From the IMG/VR virus record IMGVR_UViG_3300028829_004377, positions 1 through 64,000 of that record: a stretch of DNA of 64,000 nt; one strand, 5' to 3'. The stretch comes from a virus. Shown here piece after piece: positions 13,942-31,965 of this stretch. The position numbers and the translations under genes are program-made. Under the pieces are notes generated by a model that had not been told where the DNA came from, searched no databases, and saw only the letters and a list, made by a program, of their open reading frames with translations. How positions within the stretch are numbered: position 1 is the stretch's first letter; every line of letters begins with the position of its first letter.

Positions 13942-14480
13942 TGTTATTATCTGAAAACGATATACAGAAAGTAGAATTAGATAACGATATTGTTATTAAA
14001 ACTTTTAAAGGTGCAAAAGATATTCATGGTCATGCTTTATACAATAATCAATTAGGTGATATTTGGTTTGAGAGATATAAAAGATACAGAGAAATAGTTC
14101 CTTCTATATGTGAAGTTTATGAAGTAACATCTAATAGAATTGTAATGGAGTATGTAAAAGGTGAATCGGTTCATTTTAGAACTTGTACTAAGAAAGAATT
14201 AAATGCAGTACTATTATACTATTACGAATTAATGAGAGGTAGTCTAACATATTATAATGAATATGGCCACTACTTTGTTCATGGAGATATGAACCCTACT
14301 AATATGCTATTACAAACTAGAGATGTTTACCCGTCTACAGTTTCAACAAAAGGAACTAAAAAAGAATTATTAAACTTAAGACTAATTGAACCAGATGGCT
14401 TTTTTAGGCATGCAAGACTTGATTTGAATAATTTTATTATGAATCAAATGAGATTTAGTACAAGGTTAATGTATGTATAA
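13938..14480 (+). CDS. Small kinase-fold phosphotransferase (APH/LPS-kinase type)
   Basis: The 180-aa protein has a catalytic loop HGDMNPTNML (H115, D117, N122), which is the H-x-D-x4-N pattern of aminoglycoside-phosphotransferase and lipopolysaccharide-kinase-like enzymes. Downstream, LIEPDGF stands where the metal-binding D-F-G/D-P-D loop is expected. The N-lobe is short but includes IVIKTFKG (possible ATP lysine). It is smaller than typical family members (about 250-300 aa). It overlaps both neighbours. The acceptor could be a sugar, a lipid-linked glycan or a protein; the sequence does not say which. Confidence 0.65.
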   Translation: MMLLSENDIQKVELDNDIVIKTFKGAKDIHGHALYNNQLGDIWFERYKRYREIVPSICEVYEVTSNRIVMEYVKGESVHFRTCTKKELNAVLLYYYELMRGSLTYYNEYGHYFVHGDMNPTNMLLQTRDVYPSTVSTKGTKKELLNLRLIEPDGFFRHARLDLNNFIMNQMRFSTRLMYV

Positions 14481-15495
14481 GTATGAAGATATAAGACAAA
14501 TACACTTAGAGCCTACTCAACTCTGTCAAGCATCTTGCCCTATGTGTGATAGAAATAAAAACGGAGGTGATGTAAACCAGTTCTTAAAAAATAAGTCTCT
14601 TACAGCAGATCAAGTTAAGCACATACTACCTAAAGAATTTGTACAGCAACTCAATACATTATACATGTGTGGTAATCATGGTGATCCTATCTTTGCTCCT
14701 GAATGTTTAGAAATGTTTAAGTATCTAAGAGAATGCAATCCTTATCTTAAACTAGGTATGACTACTAACGGTGGAGCTAGAAAAGTTGAATGGTGGGAAG
14801 AATTAGCTCAATACGATGTACATGTTAATTTTTCTATAGATGGTTTAGAAGATACTAATCATCATTATAGACAAGGAGTAAAATGGCAGCATGTAGAAGA
14901 GAACTTAGATGCATTTACTTCTGCAGGAGGCAAAGCTGATTGGACTTTTTTAGTTTTTAATTACAATGAACACCAAGTAGAAGAAGCAGAAAAGTATTCT
15001 AAGTTATTAGGTGTTAATAAATTTATACCTAAGAAGTCAGGTAGATATATTACAGCTAATCAAGAAAGAAAAACTAAACATCAAGCAGTTTTTAGAAAAG
15101 GTTTAAGTTCTTTATTATCTGAACCTACAAATCCTAAGTGGAGAAATAAAGAGCTACAAAAAGATTTTGATATTAAAAAAATAATTAAAGAAGAAAAAGT
15201 TTGTCCTAAGTGTGTAGAAAAAAAAGAACTGTATATAAGTGCTGAAGGTTTTATTTTACCTTGTTGTTGGACAGCAGGTCAAATGTATAAGTGGTATTTA
15301 CCTAAAGAGTCTACACAAATATGGGACCATATAAAGAAGTATAATATATCAGCATTAGAAACTTCTACTAAAGAAGTTATGGAATCAGGTTTTTTAGAAT
15401 CTATTGAAAGAGCTTGGCAAGGTGAAAACAAATTAGAAGTATGCGCTATAAAATGTAATAAGGTATTCGACCCTTTTACAGCGCAGTGGAGTTAA
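14473..15495 (+). CDS. Radical SAM/SPASM enzyme
   Basis: The cluster motif is C18-x3-C22-x2-C25 (CQASCPMC). The following strands (MTTNGG, then SIDGLEDTNHHYRQG) match the gene at 10314, and both lack a standard GGEP. The C-terminal half has a SPASM-like arrangement: CPKCVEKKELYISAEG, then PCCWTAG, then CAIKC. It is 340 aa. The SIDGLEDTNH motif defines a second subfamily in this cluster, distinct from the twitch proteins. The substrate is unknown. Confidence 0.85.
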   Translation: MYKYEDIRQIHLEPTQLCQASCPMCDRNKNGGDVNQFLKNKSLTADQVKHILPKEFVQQLNTLYMCGNHGDPIFAPECLEMFKYLRECNPYLKLGMTTNGGARKVEWWEELAQYDVHVNFSIDGLEDTNHHYRQGVKWQHVEENLDAFTSAGGKADWTFLVFNYNEHQVEEAEKYSKLLGVNKFIPKKSGRYITANQERKTKHQAVFRKGLSSLLSEPTNPKWRNKELQKDFDIKKIIKEEKVCPKCVEKKELYISAEGFILPCCWTAGQMYKWYLPKESTQIWDHIKKYNISALETSTKEVMESGFLESIERAWQGENKLEVCAIKCNKVFDPFTAQWS

Positions 15496-15496
15496 T

Positions 15497-16267
15497 ATGC
15501 CAGACAAATGGAATGAAATTAAATTAAACTTATTAGAAATAAATGAGAAAAAAGGTTACTGTGCTAAACGATACCAATTACATACCGATAATCAAATACG
15601 TAAATTTGATATGCAAAAAGAATTTATGAAAGAGTATATTGATAAGTTAGATTTTTTTCCTAAATTACTTGCATGGGAAAGACAAGGTTCAACTGCTCAA
15701 GTTGCTTATAAATTTATACCTAACGCTATGCAAGCTAGTCATTACTTTGGTACAGAATATAAACACCCTATTATTAATACATCAGTAAGTCAAGTTGTTG
15801 AATATTATTTTTGGGCTTTTAATTTTGTACCTTATATGATTTACACTGTTGGAGCTCCTTATATTAAAGAAATGTATAAAGATAAAGGATCGACTAATCC
15901 TCATCAAGGTATGATGTATATGGGATTAAATGATTACTTTGACGAAAGAGCTTTGATAGATAAAAAAGGTAAATTATGGGTAGTAGGTCTTGATGCTTTA
16001 AGAATTAATAGAGACCCTTTTGCTTATCTACAATCCCCTCCTTATGGAAGAGTATCTAAAATGTTAGCTAGAGTACATCAAAAGTTAAAAGAAATGGAAT
16101 ACGATATTGACTATAAAGAAAAATTAGATAGAATGTCATTTAGAGCAGAAAATGCTGAAAAAGAATATAAAATAATTGAAAGCAAAATTAAGAATACTAT
16201 TAATAAAGATGTAATAAAAAATACAATAGGAGAGCAGCAATATGAATTCTATTTCAACTCTCAGTGA
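15497..16267 (+). CDS. Uncharacterised protein, possible degenerate kinase-fold relative
   Basis: The 256-aa protein has no sure family. The stretch LNDYFDERALIDKKGKL followed by WVVGLDAL parallels a kinase catalytic and metal-binding segment (HGDL..xNILID..G.LWVIDFDA), with the catalytic Asp kept but the His and Asn replaced by Leu and Arg. FPKLLAWE in the N-terminal third fits an N-lobe. It may therefore be a pseudokinase partner of the intact kinase-like gene at 13938. The likeness is from eye alignment and could be accidental. Confidence 0.5.
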   Translation: MPDKWNEIKLNLLEINEKKGYCAKRYQLHTDNQIRKFDMQKEFMKEYIDKLDFFPKLLAWERQGSTAQVAYKFIPNAMQASHYFGTEYKHPIINTSVSQVVEYYFWAFNFVPYMIYTVGAPYIKEMYKDKGSTNPHQGMMYMGLNDYFDERALIDKKGKLWVVGLDALRINRDPFAYLQSPPYGRVSKMLARVHQKLKEMEYDIDYKEKLDRMSFRAENAEKEYKIIESKIKNTINKDVIKNTIGEQQYEFYFNSQ

Positions 16268-17297
16268 TTATGATTTTAATGCTATACCATTTGAAGATAT
16301 AGAAATGGTAGGTCAGCATAGTATGGTAGTTAAAGACCTGTTTACTGTATCATGGCTACTAGGAAGATTTTGTAATTATTCATGTTCATATTGCTGGCCT
16401 TATGCTTCAAGTAGAACTAAAGATCATAGAGATACTGAATTATGTTTAATGACTATAGACGAAATAAAAAGACAAGCGAGGGACAATGGGTTTAATTCAT
16501 TTCATTTTTCACTTAGTGGCGGTGAACCTACTTTTCATCCAGGGTATTTGGAAATACTCGAGCATCTTGCTGATGACGCTGATAATTGCAATTATACTTC
16601 AATACATATGACAACTAACTTATCAAGGAAAGGACCTTGGTGGGATAGATATCTTAAATCAGCTAATAAATTTCAAAGAGCTTCTATTACAGCTTCTTGT
16701 CATAGAGAGCATGTTAACACTGAAGCTAAGTTAGAAGAGTTTAGAGACAAGTTAGTTTATTTACAAGACAATGGAGTTAAATTAACTATTAATCAAGTTA
16801 TGTTAGTTGATACATTCTGGCAATGTTGGGAAGATGCTCAATACTTTGCTGAAAAAGATATTAACGTTACACTTAAACCTCAATCAGACCCTACTGCTTC
16901 ATTTGTTGTGGATGGTTACACTGATGAAATGTTAGAGTTGCTTCATAACGGTATGCCTCAGAATATAGACGGTAAACAAATTTTTCAAGTTGTCATGAAA
17001 GACAGTAAAGGAAAAGAATGGTGGATGGATCAAGCTGAGAGATTTAATGCTTTTAACTTTAATAGATTTAAAGGTTGGGAATGTTCATCAGGTTATAGAT
17101 CTATAATTATTAGAGAGCCAGACGGTAGCGTAAAAAGAAGCTATAGTTGTAATGATAAACCTTTAGGTTATATTCATAAAGGATTTAAATTGTTTGACGG
17201 CCCTAAAATATGTTCTACAGATACTTGTGTATCATCTGCAGATAGTAAAATACCTAAACGTAAATTAGGTACTGGTCATGCACTATGGCCGAAATAA
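16242..17297 (+). CDS. Radical SAM enzyme
   Basis: The core motif is C44-x3-C48-x2-C51 (CNYSCSYC), followed by FSLSGGEPTFHPGYLE. Other cysteines lie in the C-terminus (WECSSGYRS, then YSCNDKPLG, then CSTDTC). Length is 351 aa. It belongs nearer to the gene at 6829 than to the twitch subfamily. A ribosome site (AGGAGAG) precedes the ATG, which lies 26 bases inside the previous gene. This is the last radical SAM gene of the run; sugar-enzyme-like genes follow. The substrate is unknown. Confidence 0.85.
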   Translation: MNSISTLSDYDFNAIPFEDIEMVGQHSMVVKDLFTVSWLLGRFCNYSCSYCWPYASSRTKDHRDTELCLMTIDEIKRQARDNGFNSFHFSLSGGEPTFHPGYLEILEHLADDADNCNYTSIHMTTNLSRKGPWWDRYLKSANKFQRASITASCHREHVNTEAKLEEFRDKLVYLQDNGVKLTINQVMLVDTFWQCWEDAQYFAEKDINVTLKPQSDPTASFVVDGYTDEMLELLHNGMPQNIDGKQIFQVVMKDSKGKEWWMDQAERFNAFNFNRFKGWECSSGYRSIIIREPDGSVKRSYSCNDKPLGYIHKGFKLFDGPKICSTDTCVSSADSKIPKRKLGTGHALWPK

Positions 17298-18010
17298 ACT
17301 TCTATACATTTAAATGGGGAGAAAAATATGGCCCGGAATACGTCAACAGACTTTACGGTTCTTTACGGCACCACTGTAGTAAGTCTTTCGTACTTAATCT
17401 TATTTCTGATAATTTTCACGGGATTGATTCTAGTATCAATTGTATCGATTATACCAGCTTCGATCCTTTTCCTCATCCAAAAAATCAAATCTTTACAAGA
17501 GAAAAACTCGTCTTATTCGACAAATTCGTAGAAGGTAAAAATTGTTGGTTAGATTTAGATATACTTATACATTCAAATATAGATGATTTATTAGATTTAG
17601 ATTTTCCTAGACCTAAATTTATATGGAACTACTGGAACAATTATAAAGAGAGATCTGAAAGATGGTATGGTAAAGGTGTATCATGTCATGTCAATTCTTC
17701 TTTCGTTATGTGGGAAGGTGATAAAGGTAGATACTTATACAACTTACTTAAAGATAACGAAGAAAAAGCTTTCTTCACTTATAAGTCTTTAGATAAGTTT
17801 TTATTTTATCAAGCTCATAGAAAAGGGTTGATGGATTTCTGGGATGAAGGTATAGTAAGTAACTACAATAGAGAGTGGTTTCAGAAAAAAGGTAGGATGA
17901 GTATATTCAATACTTCACATATACTTTATAACAAAGGTATAACAGAGCAAGCATTTGAATTAGATGAGGCAAAAGGATGGGCAGAAGAGATGTGGAAAAG
18001 TTATTACTAA
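17285..18010 (+). CDS. Glycosyltransferase-like protein (DxD, GT-A type)
   Basis: The N-terminal motif GEKYGPEYVNRL recurs in the genes at 19320 and 19856, making the three paralogues. CWLDLDILIHSN provides a D-x-D in the position expected for nucleotide-sugar and metal binding in GT-A enzymes (GT8-like). VNSSFVMWEGD resembles the acceptor-side loop of such enzymes. It has no membrane segment, so it would act in the cytoplasm. The acceptor is unknown; a virion protein or a host glycan are both plausible. Confidence 0.7.
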   Translation: MAEINFYTFKWGEKYGPEYVNRLYGSLRHHCSKSFVLNLISDNFHGIDSSINCIDYTSFDPFPHPKNQIFTREKLVLFDKFVEGKNCWLDLDILIHSNIDDLLDLDFPRPKFIWNYWNNYKERSERWYGKGVSCHVNSSFVMWEGDKGRYLYNLLKDNEEKAFFTYKSLDKFLFYQAHRKGLMDFWDEGIVSNYNREWFQKKGRMSIFNTSHILYNKGITEQAFELDEAKGWAEEMWKSYY

Positions 18011-18393
18011 ATGCTATTATAGATGGAGGTTATGAATCAGTAACTTTTATAGCTAGTAATGAGAGACCACGATTAATAAGAGAAGTCAAAGGATTAGGAA
18101 TAGATCTAGACGTTGTAGATTATGATCCTAAGTTTGAGAATCCAAGAGATGCTATATTCGATAATATAACCTTTAACGAATTAGTAGTTGATTTTAATAC
18201 TGAAAAGCACTATCCTATAGGTAAAGTATATAAAGGTGATATGATTGTTATAGGAGATAACGATCAGCATAATGGCGATTGTAACCCTACAACTAGTTGT
18301 GATCAAATTATTCTCGATAACGAAATAACTAAAGTAGATTTTAACTATAATATAGATAAGTGGTACATAGTAAAGGGTAGTAATGCAAATTGA
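17977..18393 (+). CDS. Uncharacterised 138-aa protein
   Basis: I do not recognise this protein. It begins 34 bases inside the previous gene and ends 11 bases inside the next. Visible features are YESVTFIASNERP and DVVDYDP, which look like beta-alpha units of a Rossmann-type fold, and HYPIGKVYKGDMIVIGDND. Together with the following methyltransferase-like gene it may form a two-subunit enzyme, or be a split version of one longer protein. No catalytic residues can be named. Confidence 0.5.
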   Translation: MGRRDVEKLLLNAIIDGGYESVTFIASNERPRLIREVKGLGIDLDVVDYDPKFENPRDAIFDNITFNELVVDFNTEKHYPIGKVYKGDMIVIGDNDQHNGDCNPTTSCDQIILDNEITKVDFNYNIDKWYIVKGSNAN

Positions 18394-19009
18394 ATACGCT
18401 AATATGCTTAAGTGGTTCTATTATAATCATCCGGATAAGATAGATAGATTCGTTCAATCAGTATCTGAGAATCAACAGAAATCTAAACAACAATTATTTT
18501 ATGGTCTTAAAGATAAAAATATAGTTATACCTACAGATGAGAATGGTGAAGTAACTATAGAGATAGTAGGAGGCTGGTTTGGTTGGCCTCTTATAGGTAT
18601 GTTAGTTAAGTTTTTAGATATACCAATAAGAAAAATTAATTTTTATGAATTAGATGATTTCGCTTGCACTGTACTAAGAAAGTATATAGATATATTTAAA
18701 CCAGCTTTTGAAATTAATATATTCAATCAAGATTGGTTTGAAGATACAACCGAAAGAAGAGCTCATATAATTATTAATACTAGTTGTGAGCATATGGACG
18801 ACTTTGGTAATATGAAAAAAGTATTCATAGCACCAGAAAGAACTCTACTTATGATTACTAGTAATGATAAAGTAGATGAACCAGATCATATTAATTGTAA
18901 AGAGAGTGCTGTTCAGTTAGCTAAAGATAATGATATTCATATGCTACATGGTGATAGAATATGGTTCGAAGATTATAGAAGATTTATAGTGGTAGGAAAA
19001 TGGAAGTAA
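18383..19009 (+). CDS. Possible SAM-dependent methyltransferase-like protein
   Basis: The 208-aa protein has an apparent Rossmann order: a strand-loop VEIVGGWFGWPLIGML-like region (residues ~58-72), an acidic strand end INFYELDDFA, and IIINTSCEHMDDF, which resembles the catalytic-strand loop of class I methyltransferases. The glycine-rich SAM loop is not canonical, so the assignment is tentative. It overlaps the preceding unknown gene and the Fe-S assembly gene that follows. Confidence 0.45.
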   Translation: MQIEYANMLKWFYYNHPDKIDRFVQSVSENQQKSKQQLFYGLKDKNIVIPTDENGEVTIEIVGGWFGWPLIGMLVKFLDIPIRKINFYELDDFACTVLRKYIDIFKPAFEINIFNQDWFEDTTERRAHIIINTSCEHMDDFGNMKKVFIAPERTLLMITSNDKVDEPDHINCKESAVQLAKDNDIHMLHGDRIWFEDYRRFIVVGKWK

Positions 19010-19335
19010 TTAAAGAACAAATAATAAGTAGACTAAAAGAAGTTTACGACCCTGAAATATCTATTAACATATATGACTTAGGTTTAATATACGATATCAA
19101 TTTAGAAAAATTACCCTTTGTGACTCTAACACATACATTAACTTCTGCTTTTTGTCCTGCAGCCGATTGGATAATAAAAGAAATAAAGAAAGCAGTAATT
19201 AACTCTCCTGGTGTAAAAGATTGTGAAGTTATTACTACTTTTGATCCTCCATTTGATATGTCAAGAGTAAGCGATGATGTAAAATTAGCAATGGGGTGGC
19301 ATGATGATGAGACGGATAATTGGGAACCTTACTAG
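19000..19335 (+). CDS. DUF59/MIP18-family Fe-S assembly factor (SufT/PaaD-like)
   Basis: Residues 17-32 (DPEISINIYDLGLIYD) are the family signature DPE...n..DLGLI, and C52 lies in TSAFCPAADWI, where the family has its conserved cysteine. The length of 111 aa is normal. DUF59 proteins help mature 4Fe-4S proteins, so its presence in a run of radical SAM genes makes functional sense: the phage may supply assembly capacity for its own clusters. It pairs with the A-type carrier at 52110. A ribosome site (GGTAGGA) lies just upstream. Confidence 0.85.
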   Translation: MEVIKEQIISRLKEVYDPEISINIYDLGLIYDINLEKLPFVTLTHTLTSAFCPAADWIIKEIKKAVINSPGVKDCEVITTFDPPFDMSRVSDDVKLAMGWHDDETDNWEPY

Positions 19336-19883
19336 ACATATTATTAGTTAATACTGGAAACAAATATTCAGAAAAATATGTTGATAATATAGTTTATATG
19401 TTATCTAATACTGGTACTAGGTATGATAAAATACACATAATAAGAGATGAGCAATATGATGGCGTGTGGAATAAACTTCAATTATTTAGAGACTTTAAAA
19501 ACGGTCCTTACTTATATTTCGATTTAGATGTTTGTATAAAAGATAATGTCGAACACTTGGTAAGAGATAACTTTACTTTACTACATGCTTGGTGGAGAAC
19601 TGCTCATCATACTCCATTAAATTCATCTATAATGTCTTGGAAAGGTGACTATAGTTTTTATTATAACACATTTGCAGCTAACTCAGATTATTATATGTTA
19701 AATTATAAAGGCATAGATCAATATATTTACGAATTAGATATGGTGTATGAAACTTATGATCCTGTCTGTACAAGTTACAACTGGCATGGTTTTGATGAAA
19801 AGTGGCCTGTTATAATTTTTAATCAAGCTGGCGAAAAAATGTTAGAGGATGGTCCATGGTCAAAGTATATGCAGTTAGGGTAG
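19320..19883 (+). CDS. Glycosyltransferase-like protein (DxD), second paralogue
   Basis: The 187-aa protein opens with ILLVNTGNKYSEKYVDNI, related to GEKYGPEYVNRL and GTKYGPEYETYL of its paralogues. YLYFDLDVCIKDN holds the D-x-D, and HTPLNSSIMSWKGD matches the VNSSFVMWEGD loop of the gene at 17285. The likely start is a TTG at 19320, because the first ATG would remove the first beta strand. It overlaps both neighbours. It is shorter than usual GT-A enzymes, so it may be a minimal or partner-dependent transferase. Confidence 0.65.
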   Translation: MGTLLDILLVNTGNKYSEKYVDNIVYMLSNTGTRYDKIHIIRDEQYDGVWNKLQLFRDFKNGPYLYFDLDVCIKDNVEHLVRDNFTLLHAWWRTAHHTPLNSSIMSWKGDYSFYYNTFAANSDYYMLNYKGIDQYIYELDMVYETYDPVCTSYNWHGFDEKWPVIIFNQAGEKMLEDGPWSKYMQLG

Positions 19884-20425
19884 GTACCAAGTACGGTCCT
19901 GAATATGAAACCTATTTAAAAAATAAATTACCAAGCATTGAATTTCTAAATAAAGAAGAACATCCTTTTATTCTGCAATGGAATAAATTAAGGTTTATGG
20001 AATTAGACATAAACGAACCTATATGCGTAATAGATGTTGATATTGAATTACATAATGATTATATGGAGTTATTTAATTACCCTATCAATAGAGGAGAATT
20101 TTTAAGTATACCAGCCTGGTGGAGAGATACACACAATGAAAGATATAAAATCAATGGTGGTTTCTATAAATACTACCCTAGAGACTGCAAATACATCGTC
20201 GAAAAATACAGATCTAAACCTGAGTATTATTCGACAAAATATATTAGAAATAAGACGACAGTTGGACCCGTCAACGGAGAACAATACTTTGTCGAAGACT
20301 CAGCAAGACGTCGCCTCAAAGTTATCACAGTTTCAGAAGCCTGGGTTCAACGAGCGGTACAAGACACATTTATTCAAGACGGTGAAGTAAAATTAGTACA
20401 CTACTCTTGGCAACCAACCAAGTGA
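19856..20425 (+). CDS. Glycosyltransferase-like protein (DxD), third paralogue
   Basis: The 189-aa protein begins VYAVRVGTKYGPEYETYL and carries ICVIDVDIELHND with the D-x-D. FLSIPAWWRDTHN corresponds to LLHAWWRTAHH in the gene at 19320. It is the last gene of the plus-strand island; its final 25 bases overlap the 3' end of the first oxygenase gene on the minus strand, so the two transcription units converge with no room for a separate terminator. Confidence 0.65.
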   Translation: MVKVYAVRVGTKYGPEYETYLKNKLPSIEFLNKEEHPFILQWNKLRFMELDINEPICVIDVDIELHNDYMELFNYPINRGEFLSIPAWWRDTHNERYKINGGFYKYYPRDCKYIVEKYRSKPEYYSTKYIRNKTTVGPVNGEQYFVEDSARRRLKVITVSEAWVQRAVQDTFIQDGEVKLVHYSWQPTK

Positions 20426-20868
20426 ATACGTTTAACATTTTTAGTACAATTCATAGCTGTATGTCCTACAGTAGTATCTAACCTATATGCATGACCATTA
20501 GCAGGTACATGTTCTGCTTTATCACCAGTTACATGAAAACAATGTTCATGAGTATTTACAGCTAAATGAACTCTAGGTGTTCTATCTTTATGATACGTAT
20601 AACAAGTCTTAGGGTGCATTAACATAACTCTAGTTCTAACTAAGTTATAATCTTTTATGAATCTTGTTATTTCCCAACTATCATCTGTATTAATAGCATT
20701 GAAATAACTATCAGGTTTATCAGCTACCCAACCGCAGCCATAATGCCAATCGTCTGTAGGAGATTGTAAACTAATTTGATTACCTTCAAACCAACCATGT
20801 TGAGTTACTACTTGATGTAATTCAGCTTTTATTCTTTCTACATCATAGATTTTTGATAACCTATCCAT
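20401..20868 (-). CDS. Fe(II)/2-oxoglutarate oxygenase, Asp/Asn beta-hydroxylase-like
   Basis: The 155-aa protein shows the double-stranded beta-helix facial triad H93-K-D95 (YTYHKDRTPRVHLAV) and H136 (TVGHTAMN), followed by R147 for 2-oxoglutarate. The layout is that of small aspartyl/asparaginyl beta-hydroxylase-like enzymes. Substrates of this family are proteins or small molecules; none is identified here. It is the distal gene of a six-oxygenase minus-strand run, and its end overlaps the convergent glycosyltransferase-like gene by 25 bases. Confidence 0.8.
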   Translation of the reverse strand: MDRLSKIYDVERIKAELHQVVTQHGWFEGNQISLQSPTDDWHYGCGWVADKPDSYFNAINTDDSWEITRFIKDYNLVRTRVMLMHPKTCYTYHKDRTPRVHLAVNTHEHCFHVTGDKAEHVPANGHAYRLDTTVGHTAMNCTKNVKRIHLVGCQE

Positions 20869-21326
20869 TTACTTTTTACCTCTTCAATATCTTCGTCGTA
20901 ACATATCTGAAAGTTAATTCTTAAATTATCGTTATTAACTATTTTATGTTCTTCTAAAGTATTTAAAATTACAGGACCATCACTCATATTATTTCTAGTA
21001 TATAAAGGAGCATAATTTTTAGTTAACGGATGAATAACAACACTAGATCTTTTATTTTGCTTGCCATCTGTATGCCAATCCTGTATACTATCAGGTTGTA
21101 ATCTACTTAACATCATCTTTATATTTTTATTTTTCTTTAAATTATCTATAGGACTATCTTCTAATATATCTAAAACTTCTTGTGTGACTGGAGTGAACTC
21201 TAAAGGTGTTTTAACACCTGTCTTTGTACTATAATGTTCTTTCCACTTAGCAGTTTTAGAATAATTTAATAATGTATCTATATCTTTATCACTTAAAAAT
21301 TTAACTAATGGTATAAGATTTTTCAT
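20838..21326 (-). CDS. Fe(II)/2-oxoglutarate oxygenase-like protein
   Basis: The 162-aa protein has H85-T-D87 (QDWHTDGKQNKRSSVVIHPL), H127 (EEHKIVNN) and R136 (LRINFQICY), the expected order of iron ligands and 2-oxoglutarate Arg. The length matches a minimal beta-hydroxylase-like fold. It overlaps both neighbours in the operon. The sequence differs enough from the flanking oxygenases to suggest a different substrate. Confidence 0.72.
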   Translation of the reverse strand: MKNLIPLVKFLSDKDIDTLLNYSKTAKWKEHYSTKTGVKTPLEFTPVTQEVLDILEDSPIDNLKKNKNIKMMLSRLQPDSIQDWHTDGKQNKRSSVVIHPLTKNYAPLYTRNNMSDGPVILNTLEEHKIVNNDNLRINFQICYDEDIEEVKSKWIGYQKSMM

Positions 21327-22341
21327 CTAAGAAAACGCCTTCTTCAAATAATTCAAATGGATGTACCTTACCAAAGTACTCGTTAGTAAACCAACATTGC
21401 TCTTCTTCGTTGAATTCAAACCAAGGAGCTAATCCTAATACTATAGCAGTTCTTTGTCCTGTACCTTCGCTTATACTTACCTTATGAGGATTCTCTGTAT
21501 TCCAACAATACATATAACCTGGATCATTATGGAAAGTATTTTCTTCTGTATTAATATGTAACTTGCATTTTATATCTGCATTGATAGGAATATTAATTCT
21601 AGTGTTAATAAAGATGTTTTCATCATCATGCCAATGAACATAACCTGGATATTTTAATGTAACCATTCTACTACGAACTATAGAAAATGGTGTAGAGTCT
21701 ATAAATGTACCTAGATAGCCGTGCATAGACGCGGGAGTTCTTTTACAGTAAGCGAATGTATCACTGTAAGTGTTGCGACCTTGTTGCTTAGCTGCTATAG
21801 GGTTGTTCTTATGATCAAAATGTCTTTTACAAAGTTCTTTATATTCTAATTGATTGACAAAACCTTCTTCTTTTAGATATAATAAACCTGCATCTAAAGT
21901 ATACTTGCCTATTATCTCATAAAATGTAGTTCTTTTATTTGCATGGACTAGATCATCCCATATCTTTTTACCTCTTTCATCTTCGAAAAGAGTACCTAAG
22001 TTGTACCTTACCTCACCTAAAGTTTGAGCATTAACAGGTAAGTTATCAGCTTGCCAATGGTTAGGATTATAAGTTAAAGATAACCCACCATAGTTCTTAG
22101 CTCTTTCTTGATTACCTTCTATAATATTACCTTTAAAAAAACCATACCAACCATATTCAGCATATGCTTCTTTACAAGCAGTCCATAAATTATCTATAAC
22201 TTTATTATCAAGTTCTTTTATACAAGGTTTAGAATAATCATACTTATCAAACTTACGAATAGCATCATAAAAGCCTGAATGCTTTTTAATATAATAATGT
22301 ATTATTTCGTCTTCGGGTATGTCTTTAAGATAAAACTGCAT
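21301..22341 (-). CDS. Aspartyl/asparaginyl beta-hydroxylase-like oxygenase with N-terminal extension
   Basis: The catalytic domain is in the C-terminal 120 residues: H238-D-D240 (HWHDDENIFINTR), then the loop PGYMYCWNTENPHKVSI with H286, then R297 (GTGQRTAIVLGL). The first ~220 residues form a helical region with no assignment. The whole is 346 aa, the longest of the set. The PGY..W....PH.V pattern is close to the beta-hydroxylase (AspH-type) families. It sits in the middle of the run, overlapping both neighbours. Confidence 0.82.
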   Translation of the reverse strand: MQFYLKDIPEDEIIHYYIKKHSGFYDAIRKFDKYDYSKPCIKELDNKVIDNLWTACKEAYAEYGWYGFFKGNIIEGNQERAKNYGGLSLTYNPNHWQADNLPVNAQTLGEVRYNLGTLFEDERGKKIWDDLVHANKRTTFYEIIGKYTLDAGLLYLKEEGFVNQLEYKELCKRHFDHKNNPIAAKQQGRNTYSDTFAYCKRTPASMHGYLGTFIDSTPFSIVRSRMVTLKYPGYVHWHDDENIFINTRINIPINADIKCKLHINTEENTFHNDPGYMYCWNTENPHKVSISEGTGQRTAIVLGLAPWFEFNEEEQCWFTNEYFGKVHPFELFEEGVFLDEKSYTIS

Positions 22342-22972
22342 TGTTCTCTATTAACTTTTCTCTAACTATATTATAGTCCATATCAAATACTTGGAACTTA
22401 GCAGTTCTTCTATCTTGATGAAAGGGCTGCACTCTATGTCTTGGAACTGTATTAAGTAATCCTATTCTATAGTTAAAGTGAACATCAGGATCACCAGCCA
22501 TGTTTCCTAAGTATTCTAAGTTAGCTGTATCGTCTTCTAAAGCTACATTTATCGCACATGAACCTAAAGGATCAGAATGCCAAGGTAAGTCACTGCCTGC
22601 TATTTGTTTAAAATATTTTGGTACTACTCTTTTGTTATCTAAAATATATCTAAGTATCATAGTACACTTAACAGTTTCAGGATTTGTATCTGTATACTGA
22701 GACATATCATTTGTAAATTTATATGTATGCCAATTAGGTGTATATTCAAACCAGCTATTTTCAGCTTTACATTTCTCTTTGAGAGGATGCTCAAAAGGTT
22801 TCATCTCAGTTTGATCGAATTCTAATTTAAGAGCTTCAATATCTAACCAATCGAATTTACATTCAGTAACTAAGTCTTCTCTTTTCATATCATTATTAAT
22901 ATCAGGGTCTTTTCTTTCCCAGAGAGTTACTTTACCTAATTGTATTTTTTGTAATGGTTCTACAGTTGACAA
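22325..22972 (-). CDS. Fe(II)/2-oxoglutarate oxygenase-like protein
   Basis: The 215-aa protein has H132-S-D134 (DLPWHSDPLGSCAINV) and H179 (NTVPRHRVQPFHQD) in the double-stranded beta-helix order, with Arg residues after H179 for 2-oxoglutarate. The start is probably a TTG (22972); the nearest internal ATG would remove about 28 residues. It overlaps the TauD-like gene by 13 bases and the beta-hydroxylase by 17 bases. Confidence 0.7.
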   Translation of the reverse strand: MSTVEPLQKIQLGKVTLWERKDPDINNDMKREDLVTECKFDWLDIEALKLEFDQTEMKPFEHPLKEKCKAENSWFEYTPNWHTYKFTNDMSQYTDTNPETVKCTMILRYILDNKRVVPKYFKQIAGSDLPWHSDPLGSCAINVALEDDTANLEYLGNMAGDPDVHFNYRIGLLNTVPRHRVQPFHQDRRTAKFQVFDMDYNIVREKLIENNAVLS

Positions 22973-23823
22973 TTCTCGTACCCAAAACTAGCTCTATATA
23001 AAAACCTATCACCTTCGACAGCATTTCGCTTATGTATACTATGAAACTGATCCATGAATATTAGATCACCTGGTCTCCAATCGTCGTGATGGTACATATA
23101 TTTATCTTGAAATACATGTTTCTTTAACTTGACCATATGCTCTTCCATATTTACAAGTTCATGATCTTCATCACCATCTTCTATTCTTTTCCACATATCT
23201 CTAATATAATGAAAAGTAAAATACAAACCTTTTTCTTTTGTATAAGGGTGAGTATATACTAATGGTTTAGTTACACCATACTTTAACGCTCTAGCACCTC
23301 CTTGAAACATAGCTAGTTCTTTATCATCTTCTTCTAATTTATAAAAGGTATTATTCTCAAACTTGAAATTACAATCTATATTATCGTAATAATGTCTATC
23401 TTCTTTTGATAGATCATTATATGCTTGTCTAGTATCACAGAAAGATGTTACAGAATTTTCACCTGGTTTTAGACAGTATAGCATAACACATGCTTCAGTG
23501 CCACTCTTTCTTCCATTACCATTACTATGCCAATCTAGTTCTTTGTCAGCGAATATACCAATCTTTTCGCCTTCTTTTCTTTCGTTAGTAACTCTAAACA
23601 ATCCTGGATAATCTGGATGCATAAAAAACTGATTAGGTTTAAGTACATTACCTATTTGTTCTAAAATATATAAAAGTCTTTCTTCATTAATAGTTTGATT
23701 ACGTACTAGTATGACATTATCTTTTACTATTTGTCTTCCAAAATATTTTATATCTTCATCAGACATAGAATTAAAATCTATATCATATTCGTACCCAATG
23801 TTCTTTAATGGTTTCCTATCCAT
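22960..23823 (-). CDS. TauD/TfdA-family dioxygenase with an H-x-N iron motif
   Basis: The 287-aa length and layout fit TauD/TfdA enzymes: VILVRNQTI near the N-terminus, the iron motif region DWHSNGNG (H99, N101), and FHSIHKRNAVEGDRF with H261/H264 and R273 near the C-terminus. The canonical motif is H-x-D/E, but here the acidic ligand is Asn. I recall the same WHSNGN in proteins of marine T4-like phages, so it may be a conserved variant rather than an error. A strong ribosome site (AAGGAGG) precedes the ATG. Confidence 0.8.
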   Translation of the reverse strand: MDRKPLKNIGYEYDIDFNSMSDEDIKYFGRQIVKDNVILVRNQTINEERLLYILEQIGNVLKPNQFFMHPDYPGLFRVTNERKEGEKIGIFADKELDWHSNGNGRKSGTEACVMLYCLKPGENSVTSFCDTRQAYNDLSKEDRHYYDNIDCNFKFENNTFYKLEEDDKELAMFQGGARALKYGVTKPLVYTHPYTKEKGLYFTFHYIRDMWKRIEDGDEDHELVNMEEHMVKLKKHVFQDKYMYHHDDWRPGDLIFMDQFHSIHKRNAVEGDRFLYRASFGYENCQL

Positions 23824-24479
23824 AACGCCTCCTTATCAGGTATATTCTTATACTCAATACCAAATATAAGAACTACTCTCCACTTATCATTATTAACAAC
23901 TCTATGAGACCATCCTGTATTTACAAAATAAGCATGTCCGTCTTCCATAGTAAGAGCCCTATAACCTTCTATTCTATTTCTAAACTGAAACTCTGAACCT
24001 ACTGTATCAACTGCTAGTTGCATCCTACATAATACAGAAGTATCAGTATCAATATGCCAGAACAATTCATGCCCTGGAGGCATTACAGATATTCTAGCTC
24101 TAAAAACTTCACCAAATGTTTCTTCTAACCAGTTTTTAATTACACTTACATCAGTATCATTACGCCAGTCATTGTAATTAGTTTCTTCGTTTATATCAGA
24201 ACCTTGTATAGTATTTCTCTGTAATAGTATTTGTCTATAACCACCAGTAGCATTAAAACTATTTTTAAGATCATAGCTATTAGATATCTGATACTTATCT
24301 GTACCTAAATCATCTTCTTTAATCTCAGTTATAATACGTTTAATCTCGTCCATTACATTTTCAGGTGCTTTGGTAATATGTTTAAACGAAGTAAGTTTGT
24401 GTCTAGTAGGTCCTCTATCACCTTTTGCTCTTATTCTAGCATTACTAAAACCATATTGCTTGTATTCTTTATCCGCCAT
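23805..24479 (-). CDS. Fe(II)/2-oxoglutarate oxygenase, Asp/Asn beta-hydroxylase-like
   Basis: The 224-aa protein has the motif order H142-I-D144 (LFWHIDTDTSVLCRMQLAV), H192 (TGWSHRVVNND) and R201 (WRVVLIFGI), plus EDGHAYFVNTG before the distal His, as in aspartyl/asparaginyl beta-hydroxylase relatives. The sequence MPPGHELFWHIDTD is typical of this family. It overlaps the TauD-like gene and the acetyltransferase-like gene. Confidence 0.82.
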   Translation of the reverse strand: MADKEYKQYGFSNARIRAKGDRGPTRHKLTSFKHITKAPENVMDEIKRIITEIKEDDLGTDKYQISNSYDLKNSFNATGGYRQILLQRNTIQGSDINEETNYNDWRNDTDVSVIKNWLEETFGEVFRARISVMPPGHELFWHIDTDTSVLCRMQLAVDTVGSEFQFRNRIEGYRALTMEDGHAYFVNTGWSHRVVNNDKWRVVLIFGIEYKNIPDKEALWIGNH

Positions 24480-25077
24480 ATTTGTCTTTCCAATCTAATA
24501 AAGTCATATGATCTAAAGGAAATTTTTCTTTTACAAAACTGTAAGCTATCACAGATTGCCAAGCTCCTTTTTCATCTTTATTATAAGTTTTGTATAAACC
24601 TGGTTGTGTGTTCCATTCATGACCATAAAATTTATTTAACTTCTTTCCTAATTTTATTATAGTAGGTCTTCTGTAAATATATTCTACAGAAAAAAATAAA
24701 TGGTTTTTATTATTGAAATTATCTACTTGATGTTTAGCAATTACATTACCAGGAGTTAATTCATTAGATTCATATCTAATATTTTTTCTTCTGTATTTTG
24801 GATTGTAATATAATCTAGTCAATATTCTAGCAACATCATTACCAAAGTCTTGTACTGCAGCAAATGCTATCAACTCTTCTTCATCATCATCTGTAACTAC
24901 AAAAGACCAATCTAGATAATTTTTATATGTCTTTTGAAGACACCAATTAGTACTAGTATCAAACCATTTTATATCATCATGTCTAGTTAGCTCTTTACTA
25001 AACCTATTAATGTAATATAGAAATTGATCTTCGTAATTTTTTAATGAAAGTAACTTATACTTTTTTGCCCATAACAT
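24469..25077 (-). CDS. Uncharacterised protein, possibly GNAT acetyltransferase-like
   Basis: The 202-aa protein contains a beta-strand series WSFVVTDDDEEELIAF, then AAVQDF, then ARILTRLYYNPKYRRKN, which resembles the central sheet and the pyrophosphate-binding loop region of GNAT enzymes. No exact acetyl-CoA loop (R/Q-x-x-G-x-G/A) is seen, so this is weak. It lies between the desaturase and the oxygenase genes and overlaps both. No membrane segments are present. Confidence 0.4.
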   Translation of the reverse strand: MLWAKKYKLLSLKNYEDQFLYYINRFSKELTRHDDIKWFDTSTNWCLQKTYKNYLDWSFVVTDDDEEELIAFAAVQDFGNDVARILTRLYYNPKYRRKNIRYESNELTPGNVIAKHQVDNFNNKNHLFFSVEYIYRRPTIIKLGKKLNKFYGHEWNTQPGLYKTYNKDEKGAWQSVIAYSFVKEKFPLDHMTLLDWKDKYGG

Positions 25078-25777
25078 ATTCTATAAACCACGCAGTAGGG
25101 TCCCATTGACCTTTTTCTCGTCCAATCCTATAATGTGCAGCTTTCTTATGATGCTCTTCATGCCAGCCTTCACCAGCAGTAAGAAGATTAGCAAACCAAC
25201 TGTTAGTAGGTTTACCATTCGAATGCCCTAATACATTAAGCAACCCATAACCATGAAATGCAAAAACAACTGGCATACAATATCCGAAAACTAACAATAA
25301 AGGATCTACTAAAAAGAATGCTACCATAATAAAAAGATTGTACATAAAATAGTTTTTATAAAAATGTACTAGTATAGGATTTCTAAGATACTTTTTTATA
25401 AATCTTCTTTTAATTTGAAAATCATACCCCCAAGTATTTACATAAACAGACCACTTGCCTTTTTTAATATGACTATGAGGATCTAAATCTGTATCTGAAT
25501 AAGCATGATGCTGTCTATGAGTAGCAGCCCATGTTAATGCAGGACCTGCTCCTGAAAAGATACCTAATATATTTACACATACTTCAAAGAACTTATTACC
25601 TTCAAATGAACTATGAGAATAAAATCTATGATAACCGCCAGATATAGATACGATAGCGACAACGTACCACCATGCTAACGCAGCAAGAAACATCCACCAT
25701 TGACCATAAATGGCTCCTGGTATAATCATTAAGTGACAAAACATATGATTTATTAGTAACTTAGTAGTATTGCTCAT
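25055..25777 (-). CDS. Fatty-acid (acyl) desaturase, membrane-bound
   Basis: Three histidine boxes are present in order: H50-RFYS-H55, H87-RQ-H90-H91, and a C-terminal HEEHH box after TAGEGW. A further conserved segment NVLGHSNGKPTN precedes the third box. These define delta-9-type membrane desaturases that use a diiron site. Hydrophobic segments flank the boxes, and the 240-aa length is short for the family. The protein would act in the host membrane on acyl chains. It is the promoter-proximal gene of the minus-strand operon. Confidence 0.88.
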   Translation of the reverse strand: MSNTTKLLINHMFCHLMIIPGAIYGQWWMFLAALAWWYVVAIVSISGGYHRFYSHSSFEGNKFFEVCVNILGIFSGAGPALTWAATHRQHHAYSDTDLDPHSHIKKGKWSVYVNTWGYDFQIKRRFIKKYLRNPILVHFYKNYFMYNLFIMVAFFLVDPLLLVFGYCMPVVFAFHGYGLLNVLGHSNGKPTNSWFANLLTAGEGWHEEHHKKAAHYRIGREKGQWDPTAWFIEYVMGKKV

Positions 25778-25781: not shown

Positions 25782-25789
25782 TATTTATA
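25782..25789 (-). promoter_or_regulatory. Late promoter TATAAATA for the minus-strand operon
   Basis: On the minus strand an exact T4 late octamer TATAAATA ends four bases before the desaturase ATG (25777). It is in a 45-base divergent spacer shared with gp16 on the plus strand. With a T4-like start distance, transcription would begin about at the A of the ATG, so the desaturase message may have no leader. It would serve the whole eight-gene minus run. Confidence 0.6.
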
Positions 25790-28525: not shown

Positions 28526-30025
28526 ATGGCAAATAGAGACTTTAGAATCCGTCAAGGATTATTGGTCGGTGATTCCGACCTGCATTTTAGTCTTGTAGGA
28601 GATACTAGTTTAAAGTTAAAAACCGGAAGTACAATTACCATTGGCGATAACGCTGTTATCAAAGCTGGTGATAATAATTCGCTTTTAACTAATAACGCAG
28701 GATATCTTACAGCAAGTAACGTTAACCAGATTATAGCAGATAATGAATCTGATAGTACCGTTATACAAGCTTTAAAGACTAAGCAAGACCAATTAGCTGC
28801 GAGAGTAGACTCTGACTCAACTAGAGTTCAGACTATTCGAGGTCAAGTAGATGTTATCCATACAAGAATGGATTCTGATCATGACTTATTTCAAGCTAAA
28901 ATAGCAGCTGGTTTATTAAACCTTGCTGACTCAGACCTGTTAACATTTCAATTAGACCAAAAAGTTGCTGCTCTTATCGGCAGATTAGATTCTGATTCTA
29001 TTGTTCAACAGACTATTAGATCACAAGTTTATCCTAGATTAGATTCTGATCATTCAGCAGCATTAAGAGCAGACTTAGACTCTGATAGTACTAAAATACA
29101 AGCTATTCAAATTGCTTTAGATGATTTGAATACAAGAGCGAAGATAATAGATTCTGACTCAATCTCAAATATGATTGACTCTGACTTTATTAATAGTAGA
29201 TTACACTTTACTGAGAACGGTGTCTTTGCTGTTGACTCAGAAGGTGAATTGATGGTATTAACAGGATCAGATACAATTGACTCTGTTGGTAACGCTATTA
29301 CTACATTAAGAACAGATCGTGATTCTGATTCGACTAAGTTACAATTATTGCAAGGTAAGCAAAGTGATATTATTGCAAGATTAGACTCTGAAGATCCTAG
29401 AATCGCAGCTCTTAGAAAAGAATTTATCTCAAGATTAGATTCTGATCAAGCTGTTATCTCTTCTTTGGTGTTATCAAGTAACTTACAAAAGGCCAGATTA
29501 GACTCTGACCAGACGCAAGTACAACTTGTTAATACAAGAGTAAATGATGCCTTAGCTAGACTCGACTCAGATACTGTAAAGATATCTGCATTACAGAGAG
29601 TAGTTGATGCGTTAAGAGGCGATCAAGATTCAGAAGATTCTCTGAAATCTAAATTTAATAATGATATTACGTTAGGTGTTAATGCAGCTAATACTGGTGG
29701 TATAGCGGTTGTGGCTCCAGCTACAATAACTACTACTAGTACTGATGCAACAACAGTTACTACACGTGCTTCAAACTCCTTTAAAGGAATGAAAGTACTA
29801 GTAACTGCTGCTAACACAGTATCAGGTGAGAATCAAGTATCAGAAGTACTTCTTACTCATGATGGTACTAACGTCGCTTTTGTTGAGTACGGTATAGTAT
29901 ACACTGGATCAATTCCGGTTACTGCTATAAGTGCTGATATAAATGGTGGAAATGTAAGACTAAGAATCACTTCTGCGTCTGCTCAATCTACTACTTATAA
30001 AATCATAGAGCAAATAACGTTATAA
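28526..30025 (+). CDS. Long tail-fibre-like protein with RLDSD coiled-coil repeats
   Basis: The 499-aa protein starts with RIRQGLLVGDSDLHF, a marker shared with the fibre at 30093. Its middle (residues ~90-370) is a chain of RLDSD-type repeats 18 or 21 residues long, with Ile/Leu/Val spaced like a coiled coil. The C-terminal ~90 residues form a beta domain shared with the gene at 28068. Thirteen Asp-Ser-Asp tripeptides are present. The design (N-terminal attachment, helical shaft, C-terminal beta tip) is that of a trimeric phage fibre. Confidence 0.72.
   Translation: MANRDFRIRQGLLVGDSDLHFSLVGDTSLKLKTGSTITIGDNAVIKAGDNNSLLTNNAGYLTASNVNQIIADNESDSTVIQALKTKQDQLAARVDSDSTRVQTIRGQVDVIHTRMDSDHDLFQAKIAAGLLNLADSDLLTFQLDQKVAALIGRLDSDSIVQQTIRSQVYPRLDSDHSAALRADLDSDSTKIQAIQIALDDLNTRAKIIDSDSISNMIDSDFINSRLHFTENGVFAVDSEGELMVLTGSDTIDSVGNAITTLRTDRDSDSTKLQLLQGKQSDIIARLDSEDPRIAALRKEFISRLDSDQAVISSLVLSSNLQKARLDSDQTQVQLVNTRVNDALARLDSDTVKISALQRVVDALRGDQDSEDSLKSKFNNDITLGVNAANTGGIAVVAPATITTTSTDATTVTTRASNSFKGMKVLVTAANTVSGENQVSEVLLTHDGTNVAFVEYGIVYTGSIPVTAISADINGGNVRLRITSASAQSTTYKIIEQITL
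28802..29640 (+). repeat. RLDSD repeat array (18- and 21-residue units) in fibre
   Basis: Units such as RLDSDSIVQQTIRSQVYP (18 residues) and RLDSDTVKISALQRVVDA (start of a 21-residue unit) recur within the fibre. Hydrophobic positions sit seven to eleven residues apart. Serine in the DSD is mostly TCN here, with AGT in some units. Confidence 0.8.
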
Positions 30026-30028
30026 ATA
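30021..30028 (+). promoter_or_regulatory. Late promoter TATAAATA
   Basis: An exact TATAAATA overlaps the stop of the preceding fibre and lies 64 bases before the ATG at 30093. It is followed by a GAAA-loop hairpin in the leader. Confidence 0.6.
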
Positions 30029-30040
30029 TAATAATATACG

Positions 30041-30060
30041 AGGAGAGAGAAATCTCTCCT
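30041..30060 (+). other. Leader hairpin with GAAA tetraloop
   Basis: AGGAGAGA, GAAA and TCTCTCCT make a perfect 8-bp stem closed by a GNRA tetraloop. It lies 12 bases after the late promoter, at about the 5' end of the message, and has no T-run after it. A protective 5' hairpin is more likely than a terminator. Confidence 0.6.
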
Positions 30061-30092
30061 CTATAATATGACTCTGGGGATAGTGAACCGAG

Positions 30093-31631
30093 ATGGCACA
30101 AAAAAATTTTATGATAAAAAACGGTCTTCGTGTAGGAGACTCTGACCTTTTCGTTACTTCAGGCGGTACAACCGTTAAAGGACTTACTGTAGGTAACGTT
30201 AGTATTCCCTCAACTATTGGTTCTGACAATCAAATTTTAAAGGTTGTCTCTGGTTCACTTGCCTTCGCATCTGTTGCCGAAATAGAAGATAGTGACTTAA
30301 CTAAAGTCGCAAATTTACAAAACAAAGTAGACGGTTTAATAAACAGATTAGATTCTGATGATGCTGATAGACAAATAGGTACTTTAGTAGTCGACAGTGA
30401 TGGTCAAATATTATTAAACACAAATGATGATGTAGCAAATTCAGGTACTTTGACTATTGACTCTGATGGACAGATATTATTCTTAACTGGTAACGATACA
30501 TTAGACTCAGTTGGTGGTGCTATATTATCTCTTAGAGCTGATAGAGATTCCGATTCATCTAAGTTAGCAAAAATAAGTGAAATTACAAACAGGCTAGATT
30601 CAGACAGCGCAGCTATTCAATCATTAGCAACTAAGACGAGAGCAGATCTAGACAGTGATAGTATAATAATACAATCATTAAAAGCAGCTACAAATACTAA
30701 TACAGCTAACATAGCTGGTTTAGGTGGTATAGATTCAGATCACACATTCCAAACTTTAACTGTTAATAACACAACTACAGATGATAGTATATTAGTTACT
30801 ACAACTGAAGATTCTAATAATGCAGGTCCAGTGATTACACTTAAACGTAATAGTTCTAGTGTAGCCGACGCAGATTACTTAGGTCAAATAAAGTTCAAAG
30901 GTGAAAATGATGCTAACCAAGAAATAGTATATGCAAAAATTACAGGAAAAATACAAGACGCTAGTGACGGAACTGAAGATGGTATTATTGAAATAACTCA
31001 TAAGAAAGCTGGCTCAAATAATATTAGTGCAAGATTTAATAGCGACACACTTCAATTAATTAATGGTACAGGATTAGAAGTTGATGGTACAGTAACTGTA
31101 GGCAATGGATTAACTCTAACTGATGGCAACGTTATAGTAGCAAATGGTCATGGTATAGATTTTAGTGCCACAAGTGATGCTACTGGTATGACCGGTGAAC
31201 TGCTTGATGATTATGAAGAAGGTATATATACCCCTACAGTCACAGGTAGGACAAGTGGTAGCTATACTCTTGGAGATAGTGCTACAAAATTGTCATATGT
31301 AAAAATTGGTAGAATGGTTCACTTGCAAGGTCAATTACATATAACTGGTGAAAGTAGTCCAAACGGAGTTATAGATATAAGTTTACCATTTGCAACAGGT
31401 AATGGCGCAGATTTAAGTGATAGGTCTGTTGGTTCAGTTGCTTTTGATGGAGTTGGTGCACAAGGTCCGGATCATAATTCTGGTAATTTTGTTAATTTTT
31501 ATGTTTCAACTGATGCATCTGTTGGATCATTTAGGTCATCTGAGAATAATACATCGGCAGGAACTCTTAACAACTCTCATATGGCAACCAATGATAGGTT
31601 TACCATAGGTATAACATACATGACGTTCTAA
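30093..31631 (+). CDS. Tail fibre protein with DSD shaft and marine-phage C-terminal domain
   Basis: The 512-aa protein starts MIKNGLRVGDSDLF, parallel to the previous fibre. Its first half has nine Asp-Ser-Asp tripeptides, including two VDSDGQI/IDSDGQI repeats. The C-terminal ~150 residues contain DDYEEGIYTPTVTG, then YVKIGRMVHLQGQL, then ISLPFATGN, a domain I know from many marine phage fibres and likely the receptor-facing end. The GTG-started gene at 31650 follows 18 bases later. Confidence 0.72.
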   Translation: MAQKNFMIKNGLRVGDSDLFVTSGGTTVKGLTVGNVSIPSTIGSDNQILKVVSGSLAFASVAEIEDSDLTKVANLQNKVDGLINRLDSDDADRQIGTLVVDSDGQILLNTNDDVANSGTLTIDSDGQILFLTGNDTLDSVGGAILSLRADRDSDSSKLAKISEITNRLDSDSAAIQSLATKTRADLDSDSIIIQSLKAATNTNTANIAGLGGIDSDHTFQTLTVNNTTTDDSILVTTTEDSNNAGPVITLKRNSSSVADADYLGQIKFKGENDANQEIVYAKITGKIQDASDGTEDGIIEITHKKAGSNNISARFNSDTLQLINGTGLEVDGTVTVGNGLTLTDGNVIVANGHGIDFSATSDATGMTGELLDDYEEGIYTPTVTGRTSGSYTLGDSATKLSYVKIGRMVHLQGQLHITGESSPNGVIDISLPFATGNGADLSDRSVGSVAFDGVGAQGPDHNSGNFVNFYVSTDASVGSFRSSENNTSAGTLNNSHMATNDRFTIGITYMTF

Positions 31632-31649
31632 TAATTATAGGAGTAGAAA

Positions 31650-31907
31650 GTGGCATTAACAGAAGAAACAATACAAGATAAAATTGAAGTGGTAGGGCCG
31701 TATAAATTTATACAAGTTAGAACTGCAACAGTCATTAAAAGAGATGGTACAGAAATAAGTCGAGTTTTTTCAAGACACATAGTTTCACCAAACATAAGTG
31801 CAGATGGCTTATCTAATGAAAGCACAGAAGTGCAAAATATAGCAAACGGTGTTTGGACAGATGAAATTAAAACTGCTTATGCTGCACATTTAGCTGATGA
31901 CGACTAG
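31650..31907 (+). CDS. Small conserved marine-phage protein (85 aa)
   Basis: The product starts with GTG after a good ribosome site (ATAGGAG). The sequence DKIEVVGPYKFIQVRTATVI and ISRVFSRHIVSPN resembles a small protein found next to fibre genes in cyanophages, as I recall; its function is unknown. It may be a fibre chaperone or minor virion protein. It contains no Asp-Ser-Asp. Confidence 0.7.
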   Translation: MALTEETIQDKIEVVGPYKFIQVRTATVIKRDGTEISRVFSRHIVSPNISADGLSNESTEVQNIANGVWTDEIKTAYAAHLADDD

Positions 31908-31917
31908 AGTGCATAAT

Positions 31918-31925
31918 TATAAATA
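31918..31925 (+). promoter_or_regulatory. Late promoter TATAAATA
   Basis: An exact octamer lies 10 bases after the previous stop and 76 bases before the ATG at 32002. The leader that follows is unusually long for this phage and carries two inverted repeats. Confidence 0.6.
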
Positions 31926-31930
31926 AAACA

Positions 31931-31965
31931 GCATTAATGCTACTGAGCTAGAACCACGAAAGTGG
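31931..31965 (+). other. Structured leader: palindrome and GAAA-loop hairpin
   Basis: GCATTAATGC (31931-31940) is a perfect palindrome, and CCAC-GAAA-GTGG (31954-31965) is a 4-bp stem with a GNRA loop. They lie in the leader of the gene at 32002. A second GAAA-loop hairpin follows the late promoter at 30021. Confidence 0.45.

Follow-up and report, generated by a model that had tools for sequence, protein, structure and literature searches.

Marine T4-like phages are already known to carry multiple 2-oxoglutarate (2OG) oxygenases per genome, T4-like viruses rich in radical S-adenosylmethionine (SAM) genes and holding paaD have been described, and so has a variable island of radical-SAM cassettes, as judged from the available parts of the published accounts (PMC3037559, PMC5332604, and PMC7029224). 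The subject here is an operon of eight overlapping minus-strand genes, running from 25777 down to 20401 in a 64,000-nucleotide stretch of viral DNA (the window; part of IMG/VR record IMGVR_UViG_3300028829_004377, which is 69,537 bases long). The genes are numbered g1 to g8 by ascending position, and the distal six, g1 to g6, are the oxygenase-fold genes, g2 being likely so. Like the window, T4-like marine phages have several 2OG-FeII oxygenases per genome, with up to five per cyanomyovirus, but in the available text of PMC3037559 these lie in separate gene clusters without a desaturase/TauD operon. The host recognition cluster of pelagimyophages also forms a large variable island with tail fibers, glycosyltransferases, and radical-SAM cassettes; it lies between VrlC and gp14, whereas the genes of the window lie between gp15 and the terminase. 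The same account reports that pelagimyophages have an Asp/Asn beta-hydroxylase in common and that the freshwater group has a desaturase, and its available sections do not describe a 2OG-desaturase operon (PMC7029224). The radical-SAM-rich T4-like virus TARA_ERS488813_N000010 has 12 radical-SAM genes and paaD, recalling the island of the window with its PaaD-like gene, and 2OG oxygenases are not discussed in the available portion of that report (PMC5332604).

The Pelagibacter phage Mosig EXVC030M (MT647606) shares with the operon a TauD with a His-x-Asn (HxN) iron site, an SCD-like desaturase, and two Asp_Arg_Hydrox genes within ~6 kb, in an accessory region that adjoins tail fibers and MoaA-like genes. 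Unlike the window, Mosig has fewer oxygenases, extra aminotransferase, flavin reductase, and methylase genes, and no match to the g7 family. A search of the open-access full-text literature found neither a report of a desaturase/TauD(HxN)/Asp-Asn-hydroxylase operon nor one of the HxN clade.

The six oxygenase-like open reading frames overlap their neighbors by 13 to 31 bases. The original prediction, made by a model from the letters alone, described six adjacent, overlapping, and nonidentical 2OG-oxygenase-like genes, and this was borne out by homology, conserved ligands, and structure. The H-x-D/N…H…R order that it pointed to is found in all six proteins; the bare motif is nevertheless no evidence, as it is present in 58 of 279 (21%) unrelated proteins of similar size from related loci and arises in 8 to 65% of shuffles of the six proteins. 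Motif counting alone was therefore dropped, and the oxygenase claim must rest on homology and fold.

Using Pfam, g6 (23805 to 24479; H142, D144, H192, and R201), a core gene of the module, was found to match PF05118 (Asp_Arg_Hydrox) above the gathering score of 22.6 (E value 9.3e-6, score 26.0), as did x2, a plus-strand gene separate from the operon (52385 to 53188; H154, D156, H196, and R206; 7.6e-9, 36.0). The small Cpz10-like protein encoded by g1 (20401 to 20868; 155 amino acids; H93, D95, H136, and R147) fell just under that score (4e-4, 20.7), and PF05118 was not detected in g2, g3, or g4 in the Pfam scan. With phmmer, almost the entire length of g1 aligned with the solved structure of the beta-hydroxylase Cpz10 (7V4F; 1.8e-19). 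The ligands H115/D117/H160/R170 of Cpz10, which belongs to caprazamycin biosynthesis, correspond in kind to those of g1; Cpz10 acts on an aminoacyl-nucleoside in a bacterial antibiotic cluster, whereas g1 lies in a phage operon (PMC9814697). The ligands of g1 and g6 are invariant in 17 and 14 aligned sequences, respectively, the HxD/E…H iron ligands and the C-terminal Arg being kept across the relatives of both as invariant columns in alignments A6 and A7.

Profile-profile comparison joined g1, g3, g4, g6, and x2, with best links of 94 to 100%, against less than 1% for the unrelated desaturase and g7 families in the same comparison. The Asp/Asn-hydroxylase-like half of g3 (21301 to 22341; 346 amino acids; H238, D240, H286, and R297) is C-terminal and follows an extension of ~200 residues. 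By hhalign this protein is linked to g6, x2, and g1 at 90 to 96%, it matches the A7 profile at 9.5e-8, and it has a relative in locus L033 (358-1245; 4.8e-20); its few relatives retain HxD and H, with the Arg unaligned in four. The divergent g4 (22325 to 22972; 215 amino acids, TTG start; H132, D134, H179, and R188) is linked to g6 at 94 to 96% with the ligands in register and has relatives in L033, L034, and L027. It was not reached by single-profile search with A6 or A7, and one of its few relatives (L033:4561-5046) is without the first His. The weakest of the six is g2 (20838 to 21326; 162 amino acids; H85, D87, H127, and R136), also divergent, with a profile link to the g4 family of 44 to 60% compared with 5.8% or less for shuffled g2, and a weak match to the A7 profile (4.5e-4). 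Its AlphaFold (AF2) model is of low confidence (mean predicted local distance difference test [pLDDT] score, 55.7); among the matches listed for this model, 50 of 50 were 2OG oxygenases of the P4H/PHD2/AlkB type, with Z up to 9.7, which gives weak support. Single-sequence searches of viral contigs found no relatives of g2, g3, or g4, and searches of phage records with g2, g3, x1, and x2 gave no match.

By sequence comparison, five of the six genes belong to one Asp/Asn-hydroxylase-like superfamily, g1, g3, g4, and g6 clearly and g2 weakly, and g5 is of the TauD type. Assignment to the 2OG-oxygenase fold is counted as secure for g1, g3, g4, g5, and g6 and as likely for g2; the double-stranded beta-helix is supported by the model for g5, by homology to a solved structure for g1, by profile links for g3, g4, and g6, and by the low-confidence model for g2. 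The possible oxygenase x1 (48996 to 49817, plus strand) keeps HxD and a later His (H93, D95, and H233) across a four-member family, and neither family nor profile comparison yielded a link between it and 2OG oxygenases. It is for now not counted as a confirmed member of the set, so that the eight genes in 64 kb originally proposed become seven, probably eight, the gene at 52.4 kb (x2) being confirmed and the one at 49 kb unproven. The superfamily profiles also drew in families beside the module that are without HxD…H…R (L021:11397-12143, L014:11459-12133, and their relatives), and 27 of the 114 members gathered lacked these ligands; such families are possibly pseudo-oxygenases or a product of iteration drift.

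A tree built from 80 members of the superfamily placed the window copies in different groups, together with genes from other phages. The gene g6 groups with its L027 counterpart (75% identity), x2 groups with five such genes and g1 with six, and another group, with long branches, holds g2 and g4. Several of the deeper forks are weak, and the branches of g2, g3, and g4 are long. A recent tandem duplication was ruled out because the window copies stand in separate old clades with members from other phages, and the run appears to be assembled from old families. A phylogeny had been proposed earlier to see whether the genes share one ancestor; five of the six do share a superfamily, while the TauD gene comes from another branch and the paralogues are old.

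The TauD/TfdA-type protein encoded by g5 (22960 to 23823; H99, N101, H264, and R277) matched PF02668 over its full length and above the cutoff of 27 (1.4e-30, 107.5 bits). Its AF2 model (pLDDT 81.8, predicted template modeling score 0.84) aligned to the TauD-type structure 3PVJ with Z 23.8 and a root mean square deviation of 3.0 over 262 residues, and to TauD and ScoE structures with Z of ~23 and a deviation of ~3 over ~260 residues; the model is of low confidence at the metal-motif stretch 95-108. The first ligand pair is H99-S-N101, the Asn being aligned with the metal-binding Asp of solved TauD-type enzymes. Fold and full-length profile match are thus common to g5 and TauD/TfdA (nearest solved ScoE, Rv0097, and TauD), but g5 and its phage relatives have Asn where those enzymes have a metal-binding Asp/Glu. 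The structure and iron-site check suggested with the original prediction therefore returned a TauD-like model for g5 without the carboxylate of the 2-His-1-carboxylate triad. N101 occupies the carboxylate place and is invariant in all aligned relatives, HxN being unchanged in the 34 viral contigs found with g5. HxN is also present in the Mosig TauD and in two divergent paralogues in L013 (28 to 31% identity), and the iron site reads His-Ser-Asn in a gene of the cultured Prochlorococcus phage P-HM1 that is named taurine catabolism dioxygenase (L038:1096-2166). H-x-D is retained by the other TauD-type genes of these loci.

The Asn in g5 would not by itself mean a dead enzyme. Methylphosphonate synthase uses Gln at the carboxylate position. 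The iron site of human AspH consists of two His and water, with the carboxylate absent, and 2OG halogenases have an open iron site of the same kind (PMC13168262). It is conceivable, though unlikely, that the HxN TauD-like protein is active with an amide or open third iron site and performs noncanonical chemistry (e.g., halogenation, other ligand transfer, or desaturation/decarboxylation in place of hydroxylation). This would be the conserved central step in a phage-encoded pathway of several oxygenases, for a natural product or for virion modification, that is not known from any bacterium.

Two upstream genes of the operon lay outside the six originally predicted. The first gene of the operon, g8 (25055 to 25777), encodes a membrane acyl desaturase that matched PF00487 (1.1e-11), and its family profile matched stearoyl-CoA desaturase 4ZYO (2.1e-18). 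Its three His boxes (HxxxxH, HxxHH, and HxxHH; H50, H55, H87, H90, H91, H206, H209, and H210) are invariant and of the SCD1 type. Just upstream, a weak T4-late-promoter-like site, TATAAATA (25782 to 25789, minus strand), lies only four bases before the g8 start codon and, as a T4-type late promoter, would leave almost no leader. It was rejected as such, as eight sites were present in the window against 15.8 expected, and hence there is no enrichment. The second gene, g7 (24469 to 25077), encodes a conserved module protein whose family is present in 21 loci and which is tentatively a GNAT-like acyltransferase. This identity is not established: the GNAT matches are weak (0.075 for the window protein and 0.013 for 1 of 15 members), and no relative was found in the PDB.

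The search with g5 yielded 34 viral contigs from IMG/VR, or 35 loci counting the window, with near-duplicates among them (L003/L012, L021-L023, L024-L026, and L015-L018). TauD was present in 35 of 35 loci, the desaturase in 22, g7 in 21, g6 in 20, and the g1/x2 group in 18, such that the core set of desaturase, g7, g6, and TauD recurs in about twenty marine viral contigs. Recurrence of the run itself in marine genomes, a check proposed earlier, was found for this core; the runs there comprise three to five oxygenase-like genes, and the run of six in the window is the longest seen among the compared loci. The view that so dense a run is unusual for a phage holds for isolated phages, but relatives with four to nine such genes in less than 21 kb are common among the well-covered marine contigs, and it is normal for a marine T4-like phage genome to carry several 2OG oxygenases, according to the available text of PMC3037559. 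Among 50,697 phage records, g6 had one match, Mosig, which was also the only close TauD match (33 to 34% identity); the desaturase matched Mosig best and two Acinetobacter-labeled contigs. The Mosig relatives of these three genes are the ones clustered within ~6 kb.

The surroundings of the module vary. In the window it lies in the gp15-to-terminase region, in L028 directly beside a terminase-like gene, in L027 next to thymidylate-synthase-like and dihydrofolate-reductase-like (thyA/folA-like) genes, and in L003, L006, and L014 beside tail-fiber and MoxR-like genes. In the window x2 is ~27 kb from the operon, and its orthologues are part of the module in relatives, next to or near TauD in L003, L004, L006, L007, and L008. 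Radical-SAM genes abut the module in many loci and are convergent with it in the window and L027. That the module stays together while its position changes is most simply explained by its being one functional unit. A search of bacterial genomes by peptide pattern for the TauD and g6 families gave candidates but no relatives; as such a search finds only near-exact patterns, absence from bacteria is not proven.

The window itself holds a T4-like gene set that includes portal, scaffold, and gp23 capsid genes, gp15 (122-1114), and a gene for a gp9/10-like protein starting at 1127; the nearest phage relatives of its terminase are from cyanophages (51 to 55% identity). The plus-strand neighbors convergent with the operon (5426-20425) include at least seven genes of the radical-SAM type, several of which encode N-terminal SPASM/twitch domains. 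These radical-SAM genes occupy 12 kb (5426-17297) together with genes for a QueC-like PP-loop protein and a kinase-like protein, and one of them is apparently split into a SPASM-like N terminus (7883-8185) and a remainder (8194-9042), with the CxxxCxxC stretch absent between. A PaaD-like Fe-S assembly gene (19000-19335, plus strand) and an IscA-type Fe-S gene (52041-52415) are also present. Three plus-strand genes (17285-18010, 19320-19883, and 19856-20425) have DxD-like motifs and, judged by eye, a likeness to GT-A glycosyltransferases; none of them has a Pfam match. The Asp-Ser-Asp (D-S-D) tripeptide is abundant in the tail-region proteins (122-3861 and 28526-40233), where it is encoded by varied codons and in parts spaced ~18 to 21 residues apart, like a fiber-stalk repeat; across the window it was seen 87 times against 8.7 expected, and L031 has a 1,337-amino-acid open frame with 38 copies. 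D-S-D-rich tail proteins were considered and rejected as the hydroxylase substrates: the tripeptide is enriched in the window and L031, but for most of the other loci this enrichment is missing from the sequence retrieved next to the module.

The recurrent gene set suggests a multistep chemical modification pathway, and the best reading, favored tentatively and at a little under even probability, is that several oxygenases tailor one product successively. The operon would be a tailoring module whose oxygenases act in turn on one putative product. The likeliest candidates are a small molecule that is acylated or contains amino acids and a building block of the surface or virion. Neighboring genes of the radical-SAM, PP-loop ATPase, and glycosyltransferase-like kinds would supply the skeleton of the product; its acyl or amino-acid portion would be the target of the desaturase and the TauD-like protein, and the Cpz10-like hydroxylases would carry out beta-hydroxylation of amino-acid portions. 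The nearest solved relatives (Cpz10 and L-proline cis-4-hydroxylase for g1/x2 and ScoE and Rv0097 for g5) act on small amino-acid or acyl-amino-acid substrates, which fits the desaturase partner, and a shared pathway is favored because linkage with the desaturase and radical-SAM genes is conserved. Several points weigh on the other side. The oxygenase families differ in kind and number between relatives, which is unexpected for a fixed linear pathway. PF05118-type enzymes can equally modify proteins, the acyltransferase nature of g7 is weak, the Asn may leave g5 inactive as a hydroxylase, radical-SAM genes were not detected in every locus, and L009 and L016 hold the TauD gene alone.

As the number of oxygenases varies by locus, a role in protein modification keeps some weight. 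Each oxygenase would then hydroxylate its own protein target in the virion, tail fiber, or host, the genes being grouped only by the collection of accessory genes in hypervariable islands; we consider this rather improbable. Asp/Asn hydroxylation of protein domains gave the family its name, tail-fiber genes are close to these genes in the window and its relatives, the tail proteins of the window are Asp rich through their D-S-D repeats, and the pelagimyophage host recognition island gathers unrelated accessory genes in the available text of PMC7029224, all of which, like the varying paralogue number, would suit independent targets. This reading would not explain why the genes are so constantly accompanied by an acyl desaturase and the same TauD, and the D-S-D repeats are absent from the fiber genes fetched beside the module in L003, L014, L021, and L024. 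Remodeling of host lipid or envelope is the less likely again: g8 would desaturate acyl chains, g7 would be an N-acyltransferase, and the 2OG enzymes would hydroxylate head groups or chains. By analogy, OlsB, OlsC, and OlsE build and hydroxylate ornithine lipids, and LpxO hydroxylates lipid A. The SCD1 type of the desaturase is in keeping with this idea, as are the stearoyl-CoA desaturase and lipid genes reported in freshwater pelagimyophages (PMC7029224, available part), but no firm acyltransferase match exists for g7, the closest counterparts of the small 2OG proteins are enzymes with nonlipid amino-acid substrates, and five to nine hydroxylases exceed what lipid head groups need. Very improbable is that the oxygenases lower host 2OG or repair or modify nucleic acid, although roles in 2OG signaling and DNA repair have been proposed for cyanophage 2OG oxygenases (PMC3037559, in the text available): none of the six matched AlkB/TET families in Pfam, and six diverged active sites and a desaturase are needless for a 2OG drain.

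T4-like phages are highly abundant in the sea, and a large share of their accessory genes has no known chemistry. The module occupies little space, stays together as a unit wherever it recurs, and is represented by a diverged copy in the cultured Pelagibacter phage Mosig, so that its product could be sought directly. A TauD-like clade without the canonical iron carboxylate throughout also means that the name taurine catabolism dioxygenase should not be read as taurine use in these phages, and the HxN clade offers a natural test of the effect of Asn at the iron-carboxylate position.

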